Shown here piece by piece: positions 1,584 through 32,875 of a DNA stretch of 64,000 nucleotides (positions are counted from its first letter, which is position 1; every line of letters begins with the position of its first letter). The stretch lies in NCBI GenBank assembly GCA_919902765.1, contig CAKKRP010000023.1:1-64000 (forward strand). Direction: 5' to 3'. The position numbers were made by a program, and so were the translations under genes. The notes under the pieces are model-generated. The model did not search any database and had not been told where the DNA came from. It saw only the letters and a list, made by a program, of their open reading frames with translations. Source of the stretch: Gammaproteobacteria bacterium (GTDB lineage: Bacteria > Pseudomonadota > Gammaproteobacteria > S012-40).

Positions 1584-2456
1584 ATGCAAGCGAAATGGTT
1601 GGGAATTGCCCTTGCGGCCGGTTCCGTGATCGGTATGGTGGTGGGCGCGCTCGCTGTCCGTCCCGCCTTGGCCGGCATCGCGCAATCGGTGCATAATTTG
1701 GGTACGACAGGGGTAGGGTCCAACCCGAATGGCGGTGCCCGCAATCAGTTTTCCGGCACGGCGGAAATCTGTGTGTTTTGTCATACGCCGCACGGTGGCG
1801 ATGCGAACGCCGCAGTACCGTTGTGGAATCGGCGTTTGAGCAATCCCGCGATTTACCAAACTTACGATCAGCTCGGCACCAGCACCCTAGATGCCAAGGT
1901 CGCGGCAGTGGGGTCGGTGTCCTTAGGTTGTCTGTCGTGCCACGATGGCACTCAGGCGATAGACGCCGTGATTAACGAACCGGGGTCAGGTGCGGATAAC
2001 CCTGGTTTTAGAGCGGGGACATGGACAGGCACCGACAATAATTTGGGTAAACTCGCCCCAAGCGTCGTGCAAATGTTGGGTATAGATCTCACCAATGACC
2101 ATCCGATAGGCATGCAGTACGCTGGCGGCGGGCTTTCAGCCGCGCGACCCATACTCCCCCAAGGCGAAACCACCGATCCGGATTTCGCTCCTGTGCGCTA
2201 TAAAGTCGAAAACGGTCGTTACTTTTGGTGGGTGGACAAAGATTGGCGTATCGGCGGCGATGGCGAGCGCACCAAGAACGATGCCGTGTTATATACACGA
2301 GACGCCAACAATGGCTATGCCGGTCAATCGGGGCCAGAGCCGTTTGTCGAATGCGCCAGTTGCCATGACCCGCATACGACCGATAATCCCACGTTTTTGC
2401 GTGTTAGCAACACCGAAACGCCGAGCGGTTTGTGTCTGACGTGTCACGTCAAATAA
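1584..2456 (+). CDS. Tetraheme c-type cytochrome (OmcE/ECN-like candidate)
   Basis: Signal peptide; four CXXCH (CVFCH, CLSCH, CASCH, CLTCH); exactly four other His. Confidence 0.85.
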   Translation: MQAKWLGIALAAGSVIGMVVGALAVRPALAGIAQSVHNLGTTGVGSNPNGGARNQFSGTAEICVFCHTPHGGDANAAVPLWNRRLSNPAIYQTYDQLGTSTLDAKVAAVGSVSLGCLSCHDGTQAIDAVINEPGSGADNPGFRAGTWTGTDNNLGKLAPSVVQMLGIDLTNDHPIGMQYAGGGLSAARPILPQGETTDPDFAPVRYKVENGRYFWWVDKDWRIGGDGERTKNDAVLYTRDANNGYAGQSGPEPFVECASCHDPHTTDNPTFLRVSNTETPSGLCLTCHVK

Positions 2457-3403
2457 ATTGGCGGCGTAGCGTTTACGTCATCGTCATGTGTGCGCTGGCG
2501 GGGCACGCCTGGGCCGCGAACGATGAATTTGCGACCGTTGACGGTGAGCGCATCACCGCGCAAGAATATCGTTTAGCGGTGCAATCGGGGATCAAAAAGC
2601 GGTTTTATCACGGCACGATTCCCGAGGATAAATTGCGTCAGTTTCGTGAGGAAGTCGGGCAGCAATTGGTCGATCGCGTGTTGTTAGTAAAAGAGGCCGC
2701 GCGGCGTAATGTGCGTGCCGATGCGCGTGTAGTCGAAGCACAACTACACGAATATCAATCGCGTCTTAAAAAAAACGATAAACATATAGTCACAACCGAA
2801 ATGCAAGCGGGGTTGCGCCATTTCCTGGAAGAAGAAAATCAGATGCAGCAACTCGAACGCATAATCAAAACCGTGACCGCACCGGAAGAACCGGTCGTGA
2901 TGGCCTATTACCGCCAACACCCGGAATTGTTCACCACGCCGGAACGTATCCATGCCTCGATAATTTTATTAAAAGTAGATCCGGCGGCAGGCGCGGCGGC
3001 GTGGAATGCCGCACAACAAGAGGCGCAACAAATTGTCACGCGATTGCGCAAAGGCGCCGGTTTCGCGGAATTAGCCCGTATCCATTCGGGGGATGAATCG
3101 GCGTCTAAAGGCGGTGATTTAGGCTTTATCCATGCCGGGATGTTGGCCGAACCGGCGCAGCAAGCCTTATCCAAATTGCAGTCGGCACAAATAAGCGAAC
3201 CGGTGATGTTGTTGCAAGGGGTGGCGGTGTTGCGATTAGAAGAGCGTGAAGCGCCTAAGCTTAATGAATTTAAAACCGTTGCGGCGCGCGCCCGAGAGTT
3301 ATGGCAACGCAATCGCGCGCAGACGGCGTGGCGTGAGTTTATCGAAGGCTTGCGTAAACGCGCGGACATACACATCAATACGACGCTCTATCGGGAGACG
3401 TGA
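2432..3403 (+). CDS. Periplasmic parvulin-type peptidyl-prolyl cis-trans isomerase (PpiC/SurA-like)
   Basis: Signal peptide; parvulin signature 'ERIHASIILLKV...FAELARIHSGDESASKGGDLGFIHAGML'; GTG start overlaps upstream cytochrome. Confidence 0.85.
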   Translation: MSDVSRQINWRRSVYVIVMCALAGHAWAANDEFATVDGERITAQEYRLAVQSGIKKRFYHGTIPEDKLRQFREEVGQQLVDRVLLVKEAARRNVRADARVVEAQLHEYQSRLKKNDKHIVTTEMQAGLRHFLEEENQMQQLERIIKTVTAPEEPVVMAYYRQHPELFTTPERIHASIILLKVDPAAGAAAWNAAQQEAQQIVTRLRKGAGFAELARIHSGDESASKGGDLGFIHAGMLAEPAQQALSKLQSAQISEPVMLLQGVAVLRLEEREAPKLNEFKTVAARARELWQRNRAQTAWREFIEGLRKRADIHINTTLYRET

Positions 3404-3526
3404 GGGCGGTTTACAGGGCATTGTACGATGACGTACACTGCGGGGCTCGCGGTGCGGGGAAGGCGCTAAGCGAGAGGGGTAAATGGGTGGTAACACCCTT
3501 GTTGAACGTGGATAGTAAGGCATTCC

Positions 3527-5452
3527 GTGAAGATGCGTGGGGGGGGTAGACCAGTCGCGTGGGCCGTGTTGTGGCTGTTGCCGTTATTGATAACGGTAAA
3601 CGCCTATGCGGGTGTTAGCCCGTGGCGTATGGGCGGTAATCTCGAATACAACTACCGCCAAACCGATACCCAGCCTGGCAACACGTCATCCTATGACCAC
3701 CGTTTTTTGGGTGCATTGGATATCAACGGCTATTTAGGTCAGCCGTGGGTGGCAACCACCGATGCGGGTGGGACGGTCAGTGTGGGCCAAATACGCTCTA
3801 GCAGTGGGCAGCGTAGCGATGCCGATCTATTGACCGGGCGTTTCAATTTTAATTTATTCCCCAGCAGCCATTTTCCAGCGTCGTTTACCTATCAGGCGAG
3901 TAACAATGTCATCGATTGGGTCAATACTCAACAATCTTCCGCACTGACGCTGAACGATCGTTATCGTTCCAGTTATATGAGTTTGCGCCAAGGATTGATT
4001 GCGCCCCAAGGGGATCGTGCGGATGTATTTTACCAAGTGAATGATCGCAGCACCGATAAGAAGGATTTCGGGCGCTACACAGATAAAACCCTAGGATTGA
4101 AGACCCAGTTGCGTGGCGAAGGCGTTAATTTTTATGCCACCGGGACCCAATTGATGGGCTCGCAGTCGGCGACCGGCGATACCCAAACCAGCACCAACGG
4201 GGTGGCCAACCTCGGCATTTTCCCGGGCAGCGATTTCTACTTAAACACCTTGGGTACGTTGGTGAGCACGTCACGCAAAGATGGCGCGGCGCGGCCCAGC
4301 GGCACAGTTGCGCCTAGTAATGGTAGTTTTGCCTCTAACGCCGACACGTCGATACAGCAAGTGGCCAGTTATTTTTATTGGCGACCGGAATACAAGGCCT
4401 ACGCTATGACCGGCGGGGCGCGTTTGCATAGACGCAATGCCGTGTTCGCCGAACAATTAACGGAGTTGACCCAGCTCAATTCAACTGCGTCTGTAGAGCA
4501 ACAATTAATTAAGGCGGATATTGTTAACGAACAATATGATGTCGCCGCCAATCTCGCTGCGGATTATCAATTTACGATGCGTACACGCATGTATGTTGCC
4601 GCCGATTTTTCCAGCGCCAATACCTTGACGACGTGCAATTATCAGCCTTCGCCCTATCAAATTTCAGTGTTAGGGTGTACAGACTCCGCCAATAACAGTT
4701 GGGGCGGCACCGGGTCTGGCGCGGTGATACATCAATCCGATAAATATGTTTACAACGGCATAGGGTGGTATTGGTACGCCGACGGCAACACCTCCGCGAA
4801 ATTGCTGACTCAATATGAGGCGCGCGATTGGTCAGGCGCCACGAGTGGCGGTATAACGCACACCGGATACTATAATTGGGTGACCGGTAATCGCGGCACA
4901 TTGCGCGTCACCGCGACGCAAGGCGCACGCCAATTTCTCACCTACTCCAGTGCCGATTCCAACCGGATGAATGTGGCGCATACGCTATCGATGACTTGGA
5001 ATAATAATGACGAGGGGGTCAATTCCTTCTTGCAGGCCTTGGTGACGGACAATCACGAGCTCGGCTTAGATCGAAATTCCCAATTGATAAACTTGCAGTA
5101 TTCAAGTACCTACGCCATTTCCCGGGTCAGCAATTTTGGCGGCCATGTCTCGGCGCAGAGCGCGCGACGTTATGACACCTTGGGCAGCACCGGGTTTTTG
5201 ACCACCGCGAGCGGACGATTGAGCTACCAACATGCGCGGGTTTTTGGTATATATCGGTTGCGATTCAATGCGCGCGGGGACTTGTCTTTAGTCGAAGTTC
5301 AATATGGCGGGGCACGCCGTCAATTTGACTGGCAGAACGATTTGGATTACAACATCGGAAGGCTGAGTACGGCGCTTATGTATCGAATGTTGTACAATGA
5401 AGGGGCTCAGAATACGCAAATGCTGTTACTGAAGGTGAGCCGGAATTTTTGA
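3527..5452 (+). CDS. Outer-membrane beta-barrel protein, putative porin-like conduit/secretion component
   Basis: Signal peptide ending AYA; repeating amphipathic beta-strand pattern; C-terminal Phe (VSRNF). Confidence 0.75.
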   Translation: MKMRGGGRPVAWAVLWLLPLLITVNAYAGVSPWRMGGNLEYNYRQTDTQPGNTSSYDHRFLGALDINGYLGQPWVATTDAGGTVSVGQIRSSSGQRSDADLLTGRFNFNLFPSSHFPASFTYQASNNVIDWVNTQQSSALTLNDRYRSSYMSLRQGLIAPQGDRADVFYQVNDRSTDKKDFGRYTDKTLGLKTQLRGEGVNFYATGTQLMGSQSATGDTQTSTNGVANLGIFPGSDFYLNTLGTLVSTSRKDGAARPSGTVAPSNGSFASNADTSIQQVASYFYWRPEYKAYAMTGGARLHRRNAVFAEQLTELTQLNSTASVEQQLIKADIVNEQYDVAANLAADYQFTMRTRMYVAADFSSANTLTTCNYQPSPYQISVLGCTDSANNSWGGTGSGAVIHQSDKYVYNGIGWYWYADGNTSAKLLTQYEARDWSGATSGGITHTGYYNWVTGNRGTLRVTATQGARQFLTYSSADSNRMNVAHTLSMTWNNNDEGVNSFLQALVTDNHELGLDRNSQLINLQYSSTYAISRVSNFGGHVSAQSARRYDTLGSTGFLTTASGRLSYQHARVFGIYRLRFNARGDLSLVEVQYGGARRQFDWQNDLDYNIGRLSTALMYRMLYNEGAQNTQMLLLKVSRNF

Positions 5453-5609
5453 TCTGCCCGTAGCCTGACGATACCGGAGTTACCGTATAGGTAGATTCGG
5501 GGGGGTAGGGCTGTTGCAGGCAGAGAGAGTTGCGGCCAGGTAAAGTCAGCATAGTATAATAAACTGGGGAGATTTTTTTATTAACACCATCATATGGGAG
5601 CGACTAGCA

Positions 5610-6023
5610 ATGTGGAGATATGCCATATTTGGATTGGTGGGATGGGTTTCGGCGTTGCTGATATCCATTCCGGCGCAGGCGGAATATGCCGACGTGGTCA
5701 TTAACAATTATGCCGATGCGGCAGGTATGCGTCCGGTGGTATTTCCGCACTGGTACCACCGTGTGCGCTTCCGTTGTAAGGTGTGCCACGCCGATCTTGG
5801 ATTCCAGTTCAAGGCCGGTGGTAACAAGATCACCATGGCCAAAATCGTAGACGGTCAGTTCTGTGGCGCTTGCCACAACGGTGAAATTTCGTGGTCGGTA
5901 GAAAATTGCGGCATGTGTCACTCGGGCGTGCCCGGCACGGCGACGCAAATCCACGGCAGCACCGTACAACGTCTCGTCGCGCCTACTTATGAGGCGCTAT
6001 CTGACAAAAAGAAAGCGCAGTAA
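5610..6023 (+). CDS. Triheme c7-type cytochrome
   Basis: Signal peptide; CKVCH, CGACH, CGMCH; 'VVFPHWYHRVRFRCKVCH'. Confidence 0.85.
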   Translation: MWRYAIFGLVGWVSALLISIPAQAEYADVVINNYADAAGMRPVVFPHWYHRVRFRCKVCHADLGFQFKAGGNKITMAKIVDGQFCGACHNGEISWSVENCGMCHSGVPGTATQIHGSTVQRLVAPTYEALSDKKKAQ

Positions 6024-6035
6024 GGAGGCATAGCT

Positions 6036-6722
6036 ATGAGAATGATCGCGACGATAGCAACACTCGCATTGTCCCTAGGGACGGCCGCAGCGACGTGGGC
6101 GGCGGATAAGGCGGACAATAACAGCAAGCCTGTTACCTCCGCTGAAATCACCGGCTCGGTACCTGCGCAAATTAACGTTTCTAATGCCAATGTCTTCAAC
6201 CGTTTGTTGAAGAAAGACAAAGAACGCAACTCTGCGCCGCCGACTGACGGTATACACGATGCCGATAACGAGGGCACCCACCAGTTACAACCGCCTAAGG
6301 TCGCCTACGAAGGTTTCCCGACGACGGAGTTCGGCAACTACATCGATTGGGTAAAGTCCTTGAATGGCGGTAATATTAATCCGCGTTATGATCGTGAAGA
6401 TCCTAGTGTCGAGCCCATCGTGATGGACTTAGACATACTGCGTGAGGTCAAGGCCTCCATGCCGGACGTGATCTTCCCGCACAAACCGCATACACAGTGG
6501 CTGCATTGCTCCAACTGCCATCCCAAAATCTTTAAGCCGCAACGTGGCTCTAACCAGATCAATATGTCGCAGATTTTGCTCGGCCAGAAGTGCGGCGTAT
6601 GCCACGGCAAGGTGTCTTTCCCGATCACCACCAAGTCTTGCACAAAGTGCCATTCCAAGCCCAAACCGGCGGAATGGAAGCCACCATTGAGCGACGCGAG
6701 TGTGAAAAATCCGTGGCGCTAA
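6036..6722 (+). CDS. Triheme c7-type cytochrome with N-terminal extension
   Basis: CSNCH, CGVCH, CTKCH; 'IFPHKPHTQWLHCSNCHPKIFKPQRG'. Confidence 0.85.
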   Translation: MRMIATIATLALSLGTAAATWAADKADNNSKPVTSAEITGSVPAQINVSNANVFNRLLKKDKERNSAPPTDGIHDADNEGTHQLQPPKVAYEGFPTTEFGNYIDWVKSLNGGNINPRYDREDPSVEPIVMDLDILREVKASMPDVIFPHKPHTQWLHCSNCHPKIFKPQRGSNQINMSQILLGQKCGVCHGKVSFPITTKSCTKCHSKPKPAEWKPPLSDASVKNPWR

Positions 6723-6836
6723 GCTGCGGTTTTTAAAGGAATAATTACACGGCGGGGTGTGGTGTGGCCGCACCCCAAACGGTTGGCTGGTGGGCGCGGG
6801 TGGCTCACTCGCCAACGCTTATGTGCGCGGGCGAAT

Positions 6837-8396
6837 ATGAAAGACGGGGGCGGATCATCTTGGTGGTATAGGCTAGCGGCCATAGGCCTGCTAGCGGTCT
6901 TCGTCTGCGGGTGTAGTTGGGGCCGTGGTAAGGGCGTTAAAACGCCTTCCGTCCCCAGCCCTAAGGCGATACCAGCCGATAACACTGTACGGCCGGAATT
7001 GGCTCCACCCGTGGAAGATGTTGCCGTTGAAGTGATTGCCTTACCCGCAGACGCCGTGCCCGGCAAGGCGCAGCCTATGCCCGAAACGCCTACGGCGATA
7101 CCGATAGCGCCAGCGACGTTGTCAGCCCCGGTAAGCGCGCCCGCGCCGCCATTGCCAGCGGTAAATCCTGCGGGGGCCACGCCACAGAGCGCGTTACCGC
7201 CTAACACTTATCGCGTGACGGTGGGCATAAAAGACACCTCGCATCCAAACTACGGCGTGGGCAACACCATGGGTTTTGTTGTGAATGGCGAACCCGGTAA
7301 AACATTGGTGGTTAAACGCGGTACCGAATCCACGTTTGAAGTGGTAACCGATATTAAACACGATTTTTATTTGTCTACGAGCCCGATCGGTTGGGGCAGC
7401 GGGGCCTTTGGCACGGGCGTACGTGGCAACTTTACCTACCGGGGGGAAGTCACGCTGACCCCGACGGCGGATACGCCGGATACGCTGTATTATCAATGCC
7501 GTAATCATAAAGCGATGGGCGGTAAGATCTTGGTGGTGAATCCCAACGCCGACCTCGCCGCAGTGCAAAAACAAATCGCCGCCGAGCGTACCCAAAATGG
7601 CGGGGCGATAGTTGCTGAAGCCGCCACAACGGCCGCTCAGGGCAGCGCCACCAAACAAAAAATGGACTATGCGAATATGCTGTTTAAGGCTAAGAGCGCC
7701 AAACTCACGCCGGAGCTCGCCAAGCAATTTGAAAAAGAATTGGCGCAAGGCAACACCTTGGTGCATGGCAAAGACGAAGCGCGCACGCTTGCGTATGCCG
7801 ATGATTACATCAAACGATTAAACGCCGCGACGGCAGGTAAACGTAGCGATGAGGCGATGGCGGAAGCGCGCAAGTCTTATCATGAATTGTTAGAGGCCGT
7901 ACACAGTTTTGAAAAATCTCACGCCGATAACAGCAAACGCGCGCGGGCGGCGGGCGGCAAACGGGTCGATTATGATAAAAAACAAGTTGATCAATTGATT
8001 GCCGAGGCCGCGCAATTGGCGGCTAAAAATCAATACGATACTGCGAATGCCAAATTGCAACAGGCGCAGCGCCTCGTTACGTTGGCGATTAATGAAATGT
8101 TGCATCAACAGACCTTGGTCTACGATAAAAATTTTGCGACGCCCAGAGACGAATATGAATTTGAATTGGGGCGTCTAGACAGTTATGTCGAATTGATCCC
8201 AGTGGCAAAAGAACAGCGTGTACCTACGCCGGCGATGGAAAAGTTGATGGAACCGTTCAACGCCAAGGCCGAAAATTTACGCGCCATGGCGGTCAAGTCG
8301 GCAAGCGAAGGCGATCATAAAAATGCGATCTTAATGCTGCAAGCAGGCACCGAAAACGTGCAACGTGTGTTGCGGCTATTAGGCGTGAGCATGTAA
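6837..8396 (+). CDS. Cupredoxin-domain putative lipoprotein with C-terminal helical region
   Basis: Start chosen at 6837 (provided ORF begins 6759); hydrophobic segment then CGC; 'KHDFYLSTSPIGWG...TLYYQCRNHKAMGGKILVVN' resembles a type-1 Cu site. Confidence 0.7.
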   Translation: MKDGGGSSWWYRLAAIGLLAVFVCGCSWGRGKGVKTPSVPSPKAIPADNTVRPELAPPVEDVAVEVIALPADAVPGKAQPMPETPTAIPIAPATLSAPVSAPAPPLPAVNPAGATPQSALPPNTYRVTVGIKDTSHPNYGVGNTMGFVVNGEPGKTLVVKRGTESTFEVVTDIKHDFYLSTSPIGWGSGAFGTGVRGNFTYRGEVTLTPTADTPDTLYYQCRNHKAMGGKILVVNPNADLAAVQKQIAAERTQNGGAIVAEAATTAAQGSATKQKMDYANMLFKAKSAKLTPELAKQFEKELAQGNTLVHGKDEARTLAYADDYIKRLNAATAGKRSDEAMAEARKSYHELLEAVHSFEKSHADNSKRARAAGGKRVDYDKKQVDQLIAEAAQLAAKNQYDTANAKLQQAQRLVTLAINEMLHQQTLVYDKNFATPRDEYEFELGRLDSYVELIPVAKEQRVPTPAMEKLMEPFNAKAENLRAMAVKSASEGDHKNAILMLQAGTENVQRVLRLLGVSM

Positions 8397-8422
8397 GTAT
8401 ACAACATGGCTAAACAGGCACG

Positions 8423-8980
8423 GTGAAGATAATGGGCAAGTTACACATAGTCTTGGTGGCGATGGCGGCGTTGGCGGCGGGGCCGCTATTTGCCGAGGAT
8501 AATTCCGGACATTTTCAATTAAACGGCGACGTGGTGCCCCTGGCGCATGATGGCATCCATGATCCTGAAAATGAGGCCGTGCGCATTTTACAGCCGCCCG
8601 CCGAGGCGATGTTGAATTTTCCGCGCGATGAACGCGGCATCATCAACTGGGTGGAGACGCTCAACAAGGGGTTAGTCAATCCGCGCGCAGGCGTCACCGG
8701 TGACGAAAAAATGCATTCGGTGGATTTCGATGTCATTTTTCGTAACACCGCATCCATGCCCTATGTGCGATTCCCGCACCTGCCGCATACCCAGTGGTTG
8801 ACTTGTAAAAACTGTCATCCAGGGATTTTCATTCCGCAGCGCGGCGCCAATCCTGTCACCATGGCCGCCATCATCTCCGGCGAATATTGCGGTGTATGTC
8901 ACGGCAAGGTCGCGTTTCCGCCTTATGAGTGTAATCGATGCCACAAAGTGCCCAAAGAAAGCGTAGGTTTGCGTTACTAA
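8423..8980 (+). CDS. Triheme c7-type cytochrome, paralogue of 6036..6722
   Basis: CKNCH, CGVCH, CNRCH; shared 'DGIHD..NE...LQPP' and 'FPH.PHTQWL.C.NCHP.IF.PQRG.N'. Confidence 0.85.
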   Translation: MKIMGKLHIVLVAMAALAAGPLFAEDNSGHFQLNGDVVPLAHDGIHDPENEAVRILQPPAEAMLNFPRDERGIINWVETLNKGLVNPRAGVTGDEKMHSVDFDVIFRNTASMPYVRFPHLPHTQWLTCKNCHPGIFIPQRGANPVTMAAIISGEYCGVCHGKVAFPPYECNRCHKVPKESVGLRY

Positions 8981-9954
8981 TCACGGTTGCGCTGGCGCAT
9001 ACGGCATGCGCGCTCAAACCGGTGGCGCAAGCGCCCGATGCGCCAGTCGCGCCGTTTGCGGCCAAGAGCCTGACCTATGTGGCGACGCTGGATAATGTAC
9101 GCCTCGGTTACGCGGATAAATTTTTGCGCGTATTGTTCGGGCGCAATGAATATCGGTTGGAACGTCCGGTCGCCATAGCCGCGCGCGATAAAAATCTATA
9201 TATCGCGGACGCAGGCGCGCATATCATTTTTCGTTATGACATAGCCAGGAAAATATTAACCAAAATCGGTAGTGCCGGTGACAAATTGGCGGGCGAGGCG
9301 GGCGGAATTTACGTCGCCGCCAACGGCGATTTTTATGTCGCCGATCCAGTAGGTCAACAAGTTCTCAAATTCTCTCGCAATGGCGATTTATTACAGACAT
9401 TTCGCGACGCGCCCAATATTTCGCGACCCATTGCCGTGGCCGTCGATGAAAACAGCGGGCGTCTATTTGTGGCCGATGAGGTCTATAGTCATGTCGTGGT
9501 ATTTAACGCCGAGGGTGAGGCCATACAAGGCATAGGCGCGCGCGGTTTAAATGCCGGACCGGGAAATTTTCGCGTCATCACCGATATGGCCATGGCCCCC
9601 GCAGGGCTGTACGTGACGGATCGCGTTGAATTGCGTGTGCAATTGCTCGATTTGCAGGGCAAATTCGTGCGCAGCTTTGGACAACAAGAGTTGATTTTCC
9701 CCTTGGCGATTGCCCGCGACGCGCATGGGCGTGTCTACGTCACCGATCGTAGTGACAACCGTTTACGCATTTTCGATGCGCAAGGGCAGTTGATCGAGGC
9801 TGTAGGTCACAATGGCAGCGGCCCCGGCGAATTTCGTTTGGCCAATGACATGGCTATCGCCGACGATAGTTTATATATCGCGGATAGCTTGAATGGGCGT
9901 ATACAAGTGTTCAAAATAGAGCCGCCCAAAACAGAGATGTCTGCGATCAAATAG
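8938..9954 (+). CDS. NHL-repeat six-bladed beta-propeller protein, exported
   Basis: Repeated 'LYIADAGAHIIFRYD', 'FYVADPVGQQVLKFS', 'LYIADSLNGRIQVF' NHL blades; N-terminal hydrophobic segment. Confidence 0.85.
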   Translation: MPQSAQRKRRFALLITVALAHTACALKPVAQAPDAPVAPFAAKSLTYVATLDNVRLGYADKFLRVLFGRNEYRLERPVAIAARDKNLYIADAGAHIIFRYDIARKILTKIGSAGDKLAGEAGGIYVAANGDFYVADPVGQQVLKFSRNGDLLQTFRDAPNISRPIAVAVDENSGRLFVADEVYSHVVVFNAEGEAIQGIGARGLNAGPGNFRVITDMAMAPAGLYVTDRVELRVQLLDLQGKFVRSFGQQELIFPLAIARDAHGRVYVTDRSDNRLRIFDAQGQLIEAVGHNGSGPGEFRLANDMAIADDSLYIADSLNGRIQVFKIEPPKTEMSAIK

Positions 9955-9976
9955 TGCCGTGTGATAAGCGACGAAA

Positions 9977-11110
9977 GTGGCCCAGCGCAACAATGACAAC
10001 GCGAAACTTTTTATGAATGTAGCGCGTATTTGCTGTGCTTCGTTTGCCTTATCGCTTAGCGCCTGCGCTACGACGCCAGGAATATATCGCCTTACACCCC
10101 CTGCAGAAGTCGTTGTTTTTCCCAAACCGCCTGACATTGCGCGTTATCAATATCTAGGCGCGCTCGTCGGCGAGTCGAATTTTGTGCGCCCGGACAATGC
10201 GCAACAACAACGCGGCCTGCGTTTGTGGTATTGGTTGGTGGGTTTGGTATTTGGCGAGGAAGGCCCTTACACCTTGGCGCGACCGCAAACCGGTATCGTA
10301 GATGATCACAGTGGGCGCATCTATGTGTGCGATTCGGCGCGCGGCGCGGTAGTCGTGTTTGATCGCGCCGCAGGCGCCTTATATCACTGGGACGATGCCA
10401 CACCGCGTCAACGTTTCAAAACCCCGGTCGGCATTGCGCTGGGGCCGCGCAATGAAATCTGGGTTGCCGATGCTGAACTTGGCTACGTCGTACGTCTGAA
10501 CATACAGGGCGAGCCGCAAGGCGAACTCGGTAAAGGCGTGTTGCAACGTCCGGTCGGTATAGTCTGGGACGCGCAAGGTCAACGTCTCTACGTCGCCGAT
10601 GCGGCGGTACACGCAATTTTCGTTTTCGACGCGCAAGGTCGTGAGGTATCGCGCGTTGGCAAACGCGGAGAGCAAGCGGGTGAATTCAATGCGCCTACGC
10701 ATTTGGCCTTTGCGCGCGGCGAATTATATGTCAGTGACAGCCTGAATTCGCGTATCCAACGCTTTAACACTCAGGGTGTATGGTTGTCTACCTTGGGGCG
10801 GCGCGGGCTTAACATCGGCGATTTGCCGCGTCCCAAAGGTGTGGCCGTTGACGCGGCGGGCCGGGTCTATGTGGTGGAATCCTATTATGACTATCTGTTA
10901 GTATACGATCACGAAAATCGCTTGCTGCTCGCCATAGGTGGCAGCGGTACGGGGGGCGGCCAGTTCAACTTACCGGCAGGCGTGTGGTTAGACGCCACCG
11001 GCAAGGTCTACGTGGCCGATATGTACAACGGGCGGGTCGAGGTTTTTCAATTTTTGGATGATGCCCCAGTGGCACCCCAGTCACCGCCCACACCCAGCAA
11101 GGTCCCATGA
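9977..11110 (+). CDS. NHL-repeat six-bladed beta-propeller lipoprotein
   Basis: Lipobox LSAC; 'FPKPPDIARYQYLGALVGESNF' then NHL repeats. Confidence 0.87.
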   Translation: MAQRNNDNAKLFMNVARICCASFALSLSACATTPGIYRLTPPAEVVVFPKPPDIARYQYLGALVGESNFVRPDNAQQQRGLRLWYWLVGLVFGEEGPYTLARPQTGIVDDHSGRIYVCDSARGAVVVFDRAAGALYHWDDATPRQRFKTPVGIALGPRNEIWVADAELGYVVRLNIQGEPQGELGKGVLQRPVGIVWDAQGQRLYVADAAVHAIFVFDAQGREVSRVGKRGEQAGEFNAPTHLAFARGELYVSDSLNSRIQRFNTQGVWLSTLGRRGLNIGDLPRPKGVAVDAAGRVYVVESYYDYLLVYDHENRLLLAIGGSGTGGGQFNLPAGVWLDATGKVYVADMYNGRVEVFQFLDDAPVAPQSPPTPSKVP

Positions 11111-13338
11111 TAGCGAAACGCATCTTATCTACGATTTTGGTAGTCGCGGCCCTGGGCGGCGGCGCGCACTTGGTGTTGGCTGCGCAACAAACCTTAGCGC
11201 CGGATCGCATCGCCGATGTGTTGAATACCAAACACAATTTTGCGGCGTTTTTTACGCCCAAATTGCCTACCGGCGCGATACGCGCAGTGGAAGCAAGCAC
11301 GCAAAACGAGACCTGCGTGTTTTGTCATACCCCGCACGCGGCGACCATTTCCGCGCCAGCGCAACTGTGGAATCGCGGTTTTAGCGCCGCAACTTACACG
11401 CTATATTCTTCCGGGACTATGGAAGCCGTGCTCAGCGCGACCGACCTCGGTGTAGGTTCTAAGATGTGTTTGTCTTGTCACGACGGCACGATCGCGCTCG
11501 GCAAGGTGAATGCGGTTAATGGCGTCGCCGCGACGAGTGATATCACCTTTAAAAGCGGGGTGACGACCATGCCTGATGGCAGTGGAGCTAATAGCGGCGA
11601 TACACGGAATATCGGTAGTGATCTGCGCAATGATCATCCGATAGCGGTGGAATACAGCGCCACGGTAGCGGGCAATGACGGGGAATTGCATGCGCCTGGC
11701 GCCATGTTTTATCAAGCCTTGGGCACACCTGTCGTCGGCGCGCGCAATAAGACCGTGCATACCTATCCCGCAGCGCCGTTGGAAACGGTCAATGCTAAAG
11801 ATACCCTGCAATGTACCACCTGCCACGACCCGCATATACGCGGCACAGGTGCCGACGAAAATGTAAATATCAAATTTCTGCGTTTGAATCGGTTTCAAAA
11901 AGCCGACCCTGTCGATGGCATTTTTTCCGTCTCCAGCGACCAACAATGTTTGGCCTGTCATAATAAAACAGGGTGGGCGAATTCCGCGCATGCCAAGTCA
12001 ACCGCTACGCCATACACTTATATCGATAGCGCGGCAGATAAGCGCGAATTTCCGCATAATACGAACATGTGGGAAGCGGGTTGTTTAAATTGCCACGATA
12101 CGCATACTGTCGCAGGTGCGCCCTATTTATTGCGTGAAGGGGCAAGTGGCGGAAATAGCGCGACGGAGAATACTTGCTACCAATGTCATGGAGCGCAAGG
12201 GGCGAGCGCGTTGAATGTCGCATCGTTGACGAATATAGAATCCGCATTTTTGGCCGGTACTGCGACCAGCATCAGCTTGAGTACGCATGGAGATAAAATT
12301 ATAGCGACAAGCAGCGCGTATGGAGATGGCCACGCGCCCGCCAAGAAAAATGTAGACCTCGGCAACGGAACCACTGTCGCAACGGGCGGAAACCTCGCAG
12401 AGACACAGAGCAACCTTAAAACTAACCGCCATGTCGAATGTGCAGATTGCCACCATCCACATCGCGTGCAGGCGGGCACCCACAGCCACGTCGCGGGTAC
12501 CGCACACACCAACGCAGTGGCAGGCGTGTTGATCGGGAACTACGGCGTCGAACCGCTGGCGAATTATGCCGGTACGTTCACGCCCTATGACACCACAGTA
12601 CCGATGACGTATACAGTGAAGCAAGGCAACACGGGTTCCGGTACCGAGATCACCAAAGAATACCAGGTTTGCGTAAAGTGTCATTCGAGTTATAGTTTGG
12701 ACAATACCCAAATCGGTGCGACCAATAAAGTGACCAATGTTGCCGCAGAATTCCTCAGCGGCACAAGCAAACACCCCGTCATGGCGGGGACTGGCGGCAG
12801 CGGCGCGGCGGCCGGGGCGTTTGTTGCGCCATTTAATCAAGCGCTGGGCACGCAGACCATGTATTGTTCCGATTGCCACGAACCGCACAGCGGCAAAATG
12901 AAAATGGCGGGAGATGCCCTTTGTTATGATTGTCACTCAGTCAATAGCTATGGCAATACGGGTGCCTCGGTTAGCAGCAGTGGTTTTAGTTGTAGCGTAG
13001 CCCCCTGTGTATCGAATGCCGGGGCTACCGCACCCTCCAACAACGCAACGACATTTTCAAACCTGCATGTGCGCCATGCGCAACTCGTGACCGGGTATCG
13101 CTGCAACGATTGCCACACCAAGCAGATGCATGGTTGGAAATTAAAGGCCTTCCTTGTCGATATAAATGCGGTGAGTAGTGAAGTTGCAGATGTGCCGGGT
13201 GCTAAAGCCCCTGGTTATACTTACTTACCCTATTATGATGCGGCCCGTTTACAAATTTCGGGGGGGGTGGCGGCGAACGCAGGTAGCTGGACTAAAGCCA
13301 GTTGTGGCGCAAGTGGATGCCATGTACTTCCGAATTGA
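11107..13338 (+). CDS. Multiheme c-type cytochrome (11 CXXCH + one CX4CH)
   Basis: CVFCH, CLSCH, CTTCH, CLACH, CLNCH, CYQCH, CADCH, CVKCH, CSDCH, CYDCH, CNDCH, plus C-terminal CGASGCH; ATGA overlap with upstream gene. Confidence 0.87.
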   Translation: MIAKRILSTILVVAALGGGAHLVLAAQQTLAPDRIADVLNTKHNFAAFFTPKLPTGAIRAVEASTQNETCVFCHTPHAATISAPAQLWNRGFSAATYTLYSSGTMEAVLSATDLGVGSKMCLSCHDGTIALGKVNAVNGVAATSDITFKSGVTTMPDGSGANSGDTRNIGSDLRNDHPIAVEYSATVAGNDGELHAPGAMFYQALGTPVVGARNKTVHTYPAAPLETVNAKDTLQCTTCHDPHIRGTGADENVNIKFLRLNRFQKADPVDGIFSVSSDQQCLACHNKTGWANSAHAKSTATPYTYIDSAADKREFPHNTNMWEAGCLNCHDTHTVAGAPYLLREGASGGNSATENTCYQCHGAQGASALNVASLTNIESAFLAGTATSISLSTHGDKIIATSSAYGDGHAPAKKNVDLGNGTTVATGGNLAETQSNLKTNRHVECADCHHPHRVQAGTHSHVAGTAHTNAVAGVLIGNYGVEPLANYAGTFTPYDTTVPMTYTVKQGNTGSGTEITKEYQVCVKCHSSYSLDNTQIGATNKVTNVAAEFLSGTSKHPVMAGTGGSGAAAGAFVAPFNQALGTQTMYCSDCHEPHSGKMKMAGDALCYDCHSVNSYGNTGASVSSSGFSCSVAPCVSNAGATAPSNNATTFSNLHVRHAQLVTGYRCNDCHTKQMHGWKLKAFLVDINAVSSEVADVPGAKAPGYTYLPYYDAARLQISGGVAANAGSWTKASCGASGCHVLPN

Positions 13339-13779: not shown

Positions 13780-15510
13780 ATGAGTACCATATTGGGTGGC
13801 GGACCTAGCGTTCCGCGCAATATTTTCGGCGCACTGCTAGTCGTTGCGTTGATCGGCATATTTACCGCCCATGAGGCCTTGGCGGATGCCGCCGGGCGCT
13901 CTGGGCGTTCAGGCGCAACTGCAAGCCGGTGTACTAGCTGCCATACCGCAGGCGCCGTAGTGCCTACGGTCGCCTTTGGCGGTAGCGCCTCCCTAGCCGC
14001 AGGGACGACCGGCACCTACACCTTTACTATCACCGGTGGACCCGCAGTGAACGCGGGTTTTGACGTGGCTGCGTCGGGTGGCGTGTTAGCGGTACCGACC
14101 GGTGTAACGGGGATCAAAATTTTAACGCGTGAAGTGGTGCAAAGCTCCGCCACTGCATTTACCGCAAGCGGCGTGACCTATACCTTTGATTGGACCGCCC
14201 CAGCGATAGCCGGGACGTACACCTTGTACGGCGCAGGGCTTTCCGGAAATGGCGATGGAAAAGACGGTGCAGGCGATGGCACCGCTATGACCACTTTTTC
14301 AGTCACCGTTACTGCTGGCGGTGTGACTCCAGTGACAAATCCGGTGGCACGTATCACTGCGCCGACGGCCGGTGTTGCCGGGACGGCCGTGACCTTCAGT
14401 GCGATGAGTTCTACCGCGCCCGCTGGACGTACGCTCAGCTCTTATGCGTGGAATTTCGGTGACAATAGTTTTGGCGCGGGCGTTTCAACGACGCATAGTT
14501 TTTTGGCGGGTTCCTATACGGTGACGCTGACTGTCACTGACAGCTCTGGCGCGACAGGTTCCGCGACCGCACCGCTAGTCGTTGCGCCGACAGGCACCAG
14601 TGTATTGACCGCCAACGCGGGTGGCCCCTATGCCGGTGCGCTCAATGTCCCCGTGCAGTTTGATGGCTCGGGTTCGAGTGCGCCAGGCGGCTCCATTGCG
14701 ACGTACGCGTGGGATTTTGGCGATAGTTCCACGGCCGGAACGGGGGTGAATCCCACACATACCTATACCACCGTGGGGCGCTACACCGTCACCGTGACCG
14801 TAACGGACAATACCAACACCACGGCCACCGCAACCACGATGGCGAATATCGCGCCAACGACGCGGCCACCTGGCAGCGGAGGCATCTCTGCGGCGACGGG
14901 TTTGCCACGCATCGGTGAGCGTCGCTACGACAGATATTGCGCGGATTGTCATGGCGTTGGTGGCTTGGGTGTTGCTATAGACGGAACAGCCACAAGCGGA
15001 CCTGCGATCACTGGTGTCACTGCCGATACGATTGCATTCGAAATCACCGAGGTGCCGGAAATGAACACGCCAGAGCTTAATGCCCTCAGTAGCGATGACA
15101 TTCGCCTGATCTCAGCCTTTTTACAAGGCGCGCAGTTATATATCGATAATTGCGAGTCCTGTCACGGCGTAGGAGGCGTGGGCATCGCTGGTACCGGGTC
15201 GAACATCCTCGGTGCCTCGGCGCGCGAGATCGCCTCTGCCATTGAAGACATTACCGAAATGCAAACCCCCGAGTTGCAGGCCTTGACGAGGAGGGAGCGT
15301 TCATTAATTGCCTTCTTCTTACCGCGCAAGTCGCGTACAGACTCATTATCGGCGGATAGTTTGGCGGACTCCGGGGCAGATTATCCGGATATCCTAGCGA
15401 ACGATGGCGGTACATCGACCTTACCCAAAGCGACGCAAAGCGGTGCTTTTGATGGCCTAGCATTGAGTGCGCTTGGGATTTGGGCCTTGAGACGCCGCCG
15501 CAAGCAGTAA
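13780..15510 (+). CDS. Choice-of-anchor-V/reelin-like + 2 PKD domains + monoheme cytochrome domains, C-terminal sorting-like tail
   Basis: CTSCH, CADCH, CESCH; two 'YAWNFGD/YAWDFGD' PKD domains; C-terminal 'GLALSALGIWALRRRRKQ'. Confidence 0.78.
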   Translation: MSTILGGGPSVPRNIFGALLVVALIGIFTAHEALADAAGRSGRSGATASRCTSCHTAGAVVPTVAFGGSASLAAGTTGTYTFTITGGPAVNAGFDVAASGGVLAVPTGVTGIKILTREVVQSSATAFTASGVTYTFDWTAPAIAGTYTLYGAGLSGNGDGKDGAGDGTAMTTFSVTVTAGGVTPVTNPVARITAPTAGVAGTAVTFSAMSSTAPAGRTLSSYAWNFGDNSFGAGVSTTHSFLAGSYTVTLTVTDSSGATGSATAPLVVAPTGTSVLTANAGGPYAGALNVPVQFDGSGSSAPGGSIATYAWDFGDSSTAGTGVNPTHTYTTVGRYTVTVTVTDNTNTTATATTMANIAPTTRPPGSGGISAATGLPRIGERRYDRYCADCHGVGGLGVAIDGTATSGPAITGVTADTIAFEITEVPEMNTPELNALSSDDIRLISAFLQGAQLYIDNCESCHGVGGVGIAGTGSNILGASAREIASAIEDITEMQTPELQALTRRERSLIAFFLPRKSRTDSLSADSLADSGADYPDILANDGGTSTLPKATQSGAFDGLALSALGIWALRRRRKQ

Positions 15511-31621: not shown

Positions 31622-32875
31622 CTAAAATGCAACGTCTAAACCTACCAAAAAATAGTCTTCTTTATTGTTGTGGCCGTAACGTGTGTTGTCGATGACGAGA
31701 AAATCGGTGGTGATTTCGATGATTCCGCGCACATTGCGCGCGAAATAATGGCTGGCGTTGGCGGTAATGGCGTTTATGGCGATGCCACGATATAGGTTGG
31801 ATGCGCCTGCCAGCGTGCCGGGGTTGACGTAATTGTAGAGCAACGAAAAACTCGATCCTGCGTCAACGATATAGTCTAATCCGGCAATTCCGCCGTACCA
31901 CGTATCCGCGACATTGGTGCGTTGAAAATCATCCCAGCGCACTAATAGCGCCTGCCCATATAGATAAAAGCGCTCAGCGACCGCCAGGCTGCCATCGACG
32001 CCGCTGACGGTGCGCGTTATTTGTGCGGTTCCGGCGGCATTGGCGCCTGCACCGATTTGCATGAACAGACCGCCTTTTAATATCTCGGTGTCTAGCCCCA
32101 CGCGTGCGAAGTAATTTTTTTTGTTGTTATTATCGAAAATTCTATCGCTACGCGCGAGTCCGGGCGAATTCAGCTCATAGCTTGCGCCCACGCCATTGCC
32201 GTTGCTCGCGCCCATCGTCAATGCGCCATAAATGAGATCTAAATTGAGTAGCACACCGCGATCATGTCCTAGTCCGGCGAGATCGTATGGAAGATAGTCT
32301 TGCACGGTCAGGCGACGGCGGCGTGCGTACATCAGATCGGAAATCGGAAATTGTCCTATGGTCACCGTGCCGAGTATACCGGTGTAACGCAGTGTCGCCT
32401 GGTCTATCGGTTGATAGGGTGAGATACTGCGGTCGGCAAAGGTGGCGTTGAATTGAAAGCTGACATTAGACGTGAGGGCCGTGCCGCCGAGCACGTCGAG
32501 GCGATAGGGGGCTTGAATGTCGTAGGCGGTGTTGGCGACTGTGGCGCCGCTTTGGGGGTCTATGTATTCGCCTCGTCGCACGCGTGCATAGGCTTGTGTG
32601 CGTATCGAAATCGGCAACACGCGCGGTAAATGGATTTGGTTGTCCTGGGTATCTATCGTACTCAGGTCTTCCCAATGCGGAAGCACATAGCCACGGCGCA
32701 CAAAGGCGTCGCCGGCATGGTTGAGTTTTGGGCCAGCGCTATGGCATACGGCGCAACTGATTTCATATTGGCGGGTAAAATGCGGGCTGGCGATGCCGAG
32801 ACGCAGCACGCCGCATAGGCAAGCGAGGGCCAGCCCTATCCGAATAGTCAAAAATTTAAACGTCGATGTACTCAT
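31622..32875 (-). CDS. Monoheme cytochrome c-outer membrane porin fusion (Cyc2-like)
   Basis: Signal peptide; 'FTRQYEISCAVCHSAGPKLNHAGDAFVRRGY' then predicted beta-barrel ending in 'GLDVAF'. Confidence 0.72.
   Translation of the reverse strand: MSTSTFKFLTIRIGLALACLCGVLRLGIASPHFTRQYEISCAVCHSAGPKLNHAGDAFVRRGYVLPHWEDLSTIDTQDNQIHLPRVLPISIRTQAYARVRRGEYIDPQSGATVANTAYDIQAPYRLDVLGGTALTSNVSFQFNATFADRSISPYQPIDQATLRYTGILGTVTIGQFPISDLMYARRRRLTVQDYLPYDLAGLGHDRGVLLNLDLIYGALTMGASNGNGVGASYELNSPGLARSDRIFDNNNKKNYFARVGLDTEILKGGLFMQIGAGANAAGTAQITRTVSGVDGSLAVAERFYLYGQALLVRWDDFQRTNVADTWYGGIAGLDYIVDAGSSFSLLYNYVNPGTLAGASNLYRGIAINAITANASHYFARNVRGIIEITTDFLVIDNTRYGHNNKEDYFLVGLDVAF

Follow-up and report, generated by a model that had tools for sequence, protein, structure and literature searches.

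The window, the 64,000-nucleotide stretch of DNA analysed here, carries near its start a block of ten genes, all on the + strand, which fill positions 1584-13338 (Table 1). An ORF check of the window recovered all ten co-directional genes as originally predicted, and the three gene overlaps listed with them (2432/2456, 8938/8980 and 11107/11110) are real. The uetA/uetB overlap depends on a GTG start and the uetG/uetH overlap was found again in relatives; uetF probably starts at ATG 6837 rather than at GTG 6759. The predicted inventory (a tetraheme cytochrome, a PPIase, three trihemes, two NHL proteins and an 11-heme cytochrome) agrees with CXXCH counts and family matches: in the family search, TIGR04257 ('nanowire_3heme', c7-type triheme) was above cut-off for UetD, UetE and UetG, and doubled-CXXCH families matched UetA and UetJ.

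Table 1. Genes of the locus, and the module within uetJ, in window coordinates.
Feature	Position	Strand	CXXCH motifs	Predicted product and matches
uetA	1584..2456	+	4	Exported tetraheme cytochrome, candidate OmcE-type wire subunit
uetB	2432..3403	+	0	Periplasmic PPIC-type peptidyl-prolyl isomerase, SurA-like N-domain; PF00639 8.5e-17, PF13624
uetC	3527..5452	+	0	Outer-membrane beta-barrel (porin); terminal Phe; without Pfam/NCBIfam match
uetD	5610..6023	+	3	Periplasmic triheme c7-type cytochrome; TIGR04257 5e-18
uetE	6036..6722	+	3	Periplasmic triheme c7-type cytochrome, N-terminal extension; TIGR04257 1e-17
uetF	6837..8396	+	0	Cupredoxin-domain protein, probably a lipoprotein; ORF reaches back to GTG 6759
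uetG	8423..8980	+	3	Periplasmic triheme c7-type cytochrome; TIGR04257 6.5e-18; PDB 3ov0 1.8e-26, PpcA entries
uetH	8938..9954	+	0	NHL beta-propeller, probably a lipoprotein; PF01436 5.9e-20; lipobox in several relatives
uetI	9977..11110	+	0	NHL beta-propeller lipoprotein; PF01436 9.9e-28; LSAC lipobox
uetJ	11107..13338	+	11	Undecaheme cytochrome: predicted OmcE/UetA-type tetraheme module and seven-heme part
OmcE-type module within UetJ	11206..11970	+		Approximately residues 34-288, hemes 1-4; eight ligand His align with UetA/OmcE

UetC matches no Pfam or NCBIfam family, including TIGR03509. Its assignment as an outer-membrane beta-barrel holds on a signal peptide and a terminal Phe, both shared with most relatives; such a terminal Phe is typical of outer-membrane barrels. 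The cupredoxin assignment of UetF also stands: the type-1 copper ligand pattern (HDFY...CRNHxxM) is conserved in relatives, which carry a lipobox, while the Pfam cupredoxin match is sub-threshold only and the PDB gave no match. In Ca. Tenderia, the gene at the uetF position is annotated as TPR (PMC5371394). Beyond the block, the gene at 13780-15510 encodes a choice-of-anchor V domain, two PKD and two class I cytochrome c domains and a C-terminal sorting-like tail; it is unmatched in the uet loci of relatives and was rejected as a cluster member.

By gene content, order and heme counts, the locus is almost certainly the Uet cluster, uetABCDEFGHIJ. Uet (undecaheme electron transfer) was reportedly defined in the Tenderiales by Eddie et al. 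2022 in mSphere. The published system consists of UetA (tetraheme), UetB (PPIase), UetC (porin), UetDEG (trihemes), UetHI (NHL) and UetJ (undecaheme) (Hoover et al., 2023, PMC10734462), and the name uetABCDEFGHIJ is used for the Tenderiales cluster (PMC12575090). The window has the same order (tetraheme A, PPIase B, porin C, trihemes D and E, then F, triheme G, NHL H and I, 11-heme J); since content and order equal those published, the system is one already described in electron-uptake bacteria, and the locus is a new member of it. In Ca. Tenderia, Tel_16515, 16520 and 16530 are trihemes, 16525 lies between trihemes and 16545 is the undecaheme (PMC5371394), and comparison with that paper shows that the tags Tel_16515-16545 fit the window's gene order. 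The original prediction of an extracellular electron-transfer locus is thus confirmed under a published name that it had not given; its description as a nanowire 'production locus' was too narrow, as the cluster also encodes an outer-membrane conduit and periplasmic carriers.

When 369 genomes of the class were searched with a UetA profile (E<=1e-10), 51 matched, ~39 of them with strong, full-length matches. Among 20 loci taken from other families of the class, most have the ten genes in identical order, and the distance between uetA and uetJ, which share a strand, was 8.2-10.5 kb in each of the 32 genomes where it was determined; this kept order and constant spacing indicate that the locus is not a chance assembly. 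UetJ has 11 CXXCH motifs and is conserved in the 28 loci sampled, and a plasmid search found no uetA. The order to which the window belongs is autotrophic, with RuBisCO in 12 of its 13 genomes and UetA in all 13. A second form of the cluster was seen in five of the 20 loci studied in detail (L050, L053, L054, L056 and L057): there, UetE mostly has four hemes, UetF is mostly split or doubled, an extra triheme follows UetG, and UetH is absent or poorly matched.

Against 177,635 PDB sequences, UetA matched two cytochromes only, 7tfs (the OmcE filament, 5.4e-20) and 9yuq (2.2e-19), and a profile search of the PDB agreed. The other hits at E<=1 were chance aquaporins; OmcS, OmcZ, archaeal wires and other multiheme cytochromes were unmatched at that threshold. 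UetA is therefore not OmcS-like (the original prediction had compared the locus with OmcS as well as OmcE loci), and we ruled it out as an OmcS wire, which would have six hemes, not four. The window's UetA contains eight His in total, four in CXXCH and four elsewhere, giving four c-hemes with four candidate distal His; all eight are invariant in 14 aligned sequences, and the eight ligand columns are 100% His across 31/31 UetA, 28/28 UetJ, OmcE and 9yuq. With the UetA profile, OmcE scored 122 bits (here and in the His comparison, the OmcE and 9yuq sequences were those of the PDB-search alignments). Multiheme cytochromes diverge fast and the gapped alignments reach only 33% (OmcE) to 39% (9yuq) identity, so the match could reflect shared CXXCH and His motifs alone, without common fold or function; but shuffled sequences that kept every CXXCH and His in place scored at most 42 bits, and no other PDB multiheme cytochrome scored at E<=1, which leaves this explanation with very little probability. 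Judged from its sequence, UetA is homologous to OmcE and of the OmcE type, a conclusion that we hold with great confidence.

The nanowire part of the original prediction is thus supported as far as UetA is a full-length OmcE relative, a firmer basis than an analogy between gene inventories; although such homology is no proof, we consider it likely that UetA itself polymerises. Alternatively, Uet could be a porin-cytochrome conduit in which UetJ fills the barrel and UetA is a monomeric surface tetraheme, acting as terminal oxidase or mediator, with no wire. This agrees with the published description of UetA as an extracellular tetraheme (PMC10734462) and with the occurrence of OmcE-type domains outside Uet, for example in five-heme paralogues on contigs C126 and C151 of the same genome, but UetA has no solved relatives other than the OmcE filament and 9yuq, an entry with 16 copies of the chain. 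Moreover, UetA is highly conserved relative to UetC and UetJ (69-83% identity within the family, against ~27-34% outside the genus for UetC), which fits a packed polymer, and we consider a monomeric UetA unlikely. A literature search found no paper on 9YUQ, which we take as a filament because of the number of chains in the entry. Whether cells need cytochrome filaments for their function is a matter of dispute (mBio 2024, PMC11077965). AlphaFold2, run on shallow alignments, gave models of very low confidence, with a pLDDT of 35 for UetA (14 sequences) and 31 for UetJ (10 sequences).

UetJ also matched 9yuq (2.7e-19, residues 24-240) and 7tfs (residues 35-243). With an HMM built from UetA only, hemes 1-4 of UetJ scored 115 bits, whereas shuffles with the heme motifs and His held in place reached 35 at most; the overlapping stretch of hemes 2-5 scored 75 bits and those from heme 3 on at most 28.5. 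The eight ligand His, aligned with those of UetA and OmcE, are present in 28/28 UetJ. By these alignments, hemes 1-4 of UetJ are a complete OmcE/UetA-type module with seven further hemes fused to it. The UetA and UetJ sequences fall into two distinct clades with good support (98/91 and 100/99), and intact loci have one of each, suggesting that the pair probably predates the divergence of the sampled loci. A twelfth UetJ heme, at a CX4CH motif (residue 733), was ruled out: the His of the motif varies while its two Cys are invariant, and the Cys probably form a disulfide. Neither the UetA-OmcE relation nor the UetJ module is stated in the literature searched, whose scope excluded the defining Eddie et al. 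2022 paper.

In the family, 11 relatives have contigs long enough to show what precedes uetA, and in all of them its immediate upstream neighbour is an additional NHL gene. In the window's genome, its orthologue is on another contig (C18) and is 75% identical to the copy of a same-genus genome, and similarity between the window and the same-genus locus begins at 1475, at the NHL stop; together, these observations place a rearrangement breakpoint there. A CRISPR-like array with the repeat GTCTTAATCCCTTCTTTATCAGGTCAACTTTTTAAAT (about six full repeats; L028:8620-9287) follows directly behind the NHL gene at the end of C18. On the window side, upstream of uetA, the breakpoint is adjoined by a gene (194-1018, - strand) for an AAA ATPase with weak similarity to the ATPase of the XrtA/PEP-CTERM system (ExeA type). 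At a second locus, an OmcE-type cytochrome gene is followed directly downstream by an NHL gene in 10/10 family genomes searched; similarly, a Geoalkalibacter OmcE homologue has two NHL proteins adjoining (PMC12016550) and NHL genes adjoin predicted surface cytochromes in D. ferrophilus (PMC9769857). NHL genes thus recur beside OmcE-type cytochrome genes, a general point that we did not find in the literature searched. Among the nanowire companions originally proposed from Geobacter (a prolyl isomerase, NHL propellers and periplasmic or outer-membrane proteins), it is for the NHL genes that the idea is supported. The window's own genome encodes two further OmcE-type cytochromes, both with five hemes: one on C151 (L026:7502-9345), which is the second locus as found in this genome and has the NHL gene behind it and divergent class I cytochromes upstream, and one on C126 (L027:6384-7493; PDB 7tfs 2e-13), close to genes for an ABC transporter and a large TPR protein.

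In which direction would the cluster carry electrons? Metal reduction by Geobacter is known to involve OmcE-type wires and c7 trihemes, and the nearest PDB entries to UetG are the triheme-repeat entry 3ov0 and PpcA; on this reading Uet would, as in Geobacter, export electrons in anaerobic metal or electrode reduction. Several observations argue against export: uet is universal in an order with RuBisCO in nearly every genome, the triheme genes are highly expressed on the cathode in Ca. Tenderia (PMC5371394), and Uet also occurs in the iron-oxidising Gallionella and Leptothrix (PMC10734462, PMC13386937). Given this autotrophy and published context, we rate export as improbable and a net inward flow as highly likely. 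On C117 (L040:291-3513), the genome carries a second outer-membrane electron conduit, an MtrA/PioA-like decaheme cytochrome paired with a barrel of the MtrB/PioB family, and this pair, with the RuBisCO that the genome also encodes, would be consistent with lithoautotrophy by electron uptake. The window also encodes, at 31622-32875 (- strand), an exported protein of 417 aa that has a single CXXCH close to its N-terminus, a barrel-like remainder and a paralogue on C33; it has no Pfam or NCBIfam match and is possibly a Cyc2-like fused cytochrome-porin.

We infer a model in which the Uet cluster links an extracellular partner with the periplasm, electrons most likely flowing inward. UetA would be exported and polymerise into an OmcE-type heme wire, and the base of this wire would be UetJ, held within the barrel of UetC or on top of it. 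The N-terminal OmcE-type module of UetJ would pair with the first UetA subunit, and the seven remaining hemes of UetJ would lead up to the outer membrane or across it; UetD, UetE and UetG, with the cupredoxin UetF, would then relay electrons across the periplasm, and UetB and the NHL lipoproteins may serve in folding, export or assembly. On balance we favour this model as a whole (UetA wire, UetJ base in the UetC barrel, inward relay); docking of the wire by UetJ, taken singly, is plausible but falls somewhat short of an even chance. More tentatively still, UetJ could be a socket, part wire subunit and part seven-heme outer-membrane relay, through which the UetA polymer would run heme to heme into UetC, with NHL proteins assembling or capping OmcE-type cytochromes.

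The wire-to-cell connection of extracellular cytochromes is described as poorly understood even in Geobacter (PMC10553843). The module in UetJ suggests a testable way for a wire to plug into the cell, and a compact, widespread cluster that combines a wire-type cytochrome with a conduit cytochrome of like module would make this question testable. Under the model, OmcE-type wires would also serve in autotrophic electron uptake and, if the socket is real, Uet would be a widespread filament-plus-socket system, present in ~10% of the sampled gammaproteobacterial genomes.

Among known systems, the Mtr/Mto/Pio porin-decaheme conduits share with Uet the logic of a barrel combined with a multiheme cytochrome, whereas the cluster has no decaheme. 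We ruled out an identity with MtrCAB, MtoAB or PioAB, as UetC lacks a TIGR03509 match and that family is matched in the genome on C117 alone. In the Oet/OmcKL conduits with OmcS/OmcX wires of syntrophic sulfate reducers, wire-type cytochromes are likewise encoded with a porin conduit, but the cytochromes differ, and the accessible part of that report makes no mention of a wire-type module inside a conduit cytochrome (PMC10553843). The entry 9YUQ ('putative multiheme cytochrome c') is, like UetA, a tetraheme protein, homologous to it over the full length. The same holds for the OmcE filament of Geobacter sulfurreducens (7TFS; rise of 34 A, PMC12954529), which shares the four CXXCH and four candidate distal His; UetA is longer and known from its sequence, whereas the OmcE filament is solved. 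The closest counterpart is the Uet cluster of the Tenderiales. The window's genome has at another place the extra NHL gene that family relatives carry immediately 5' of uetA, but at cluster level no difference was found: the two clusters share all ten genes, their order and their heme counts (4; 3, 3, 3; 11).
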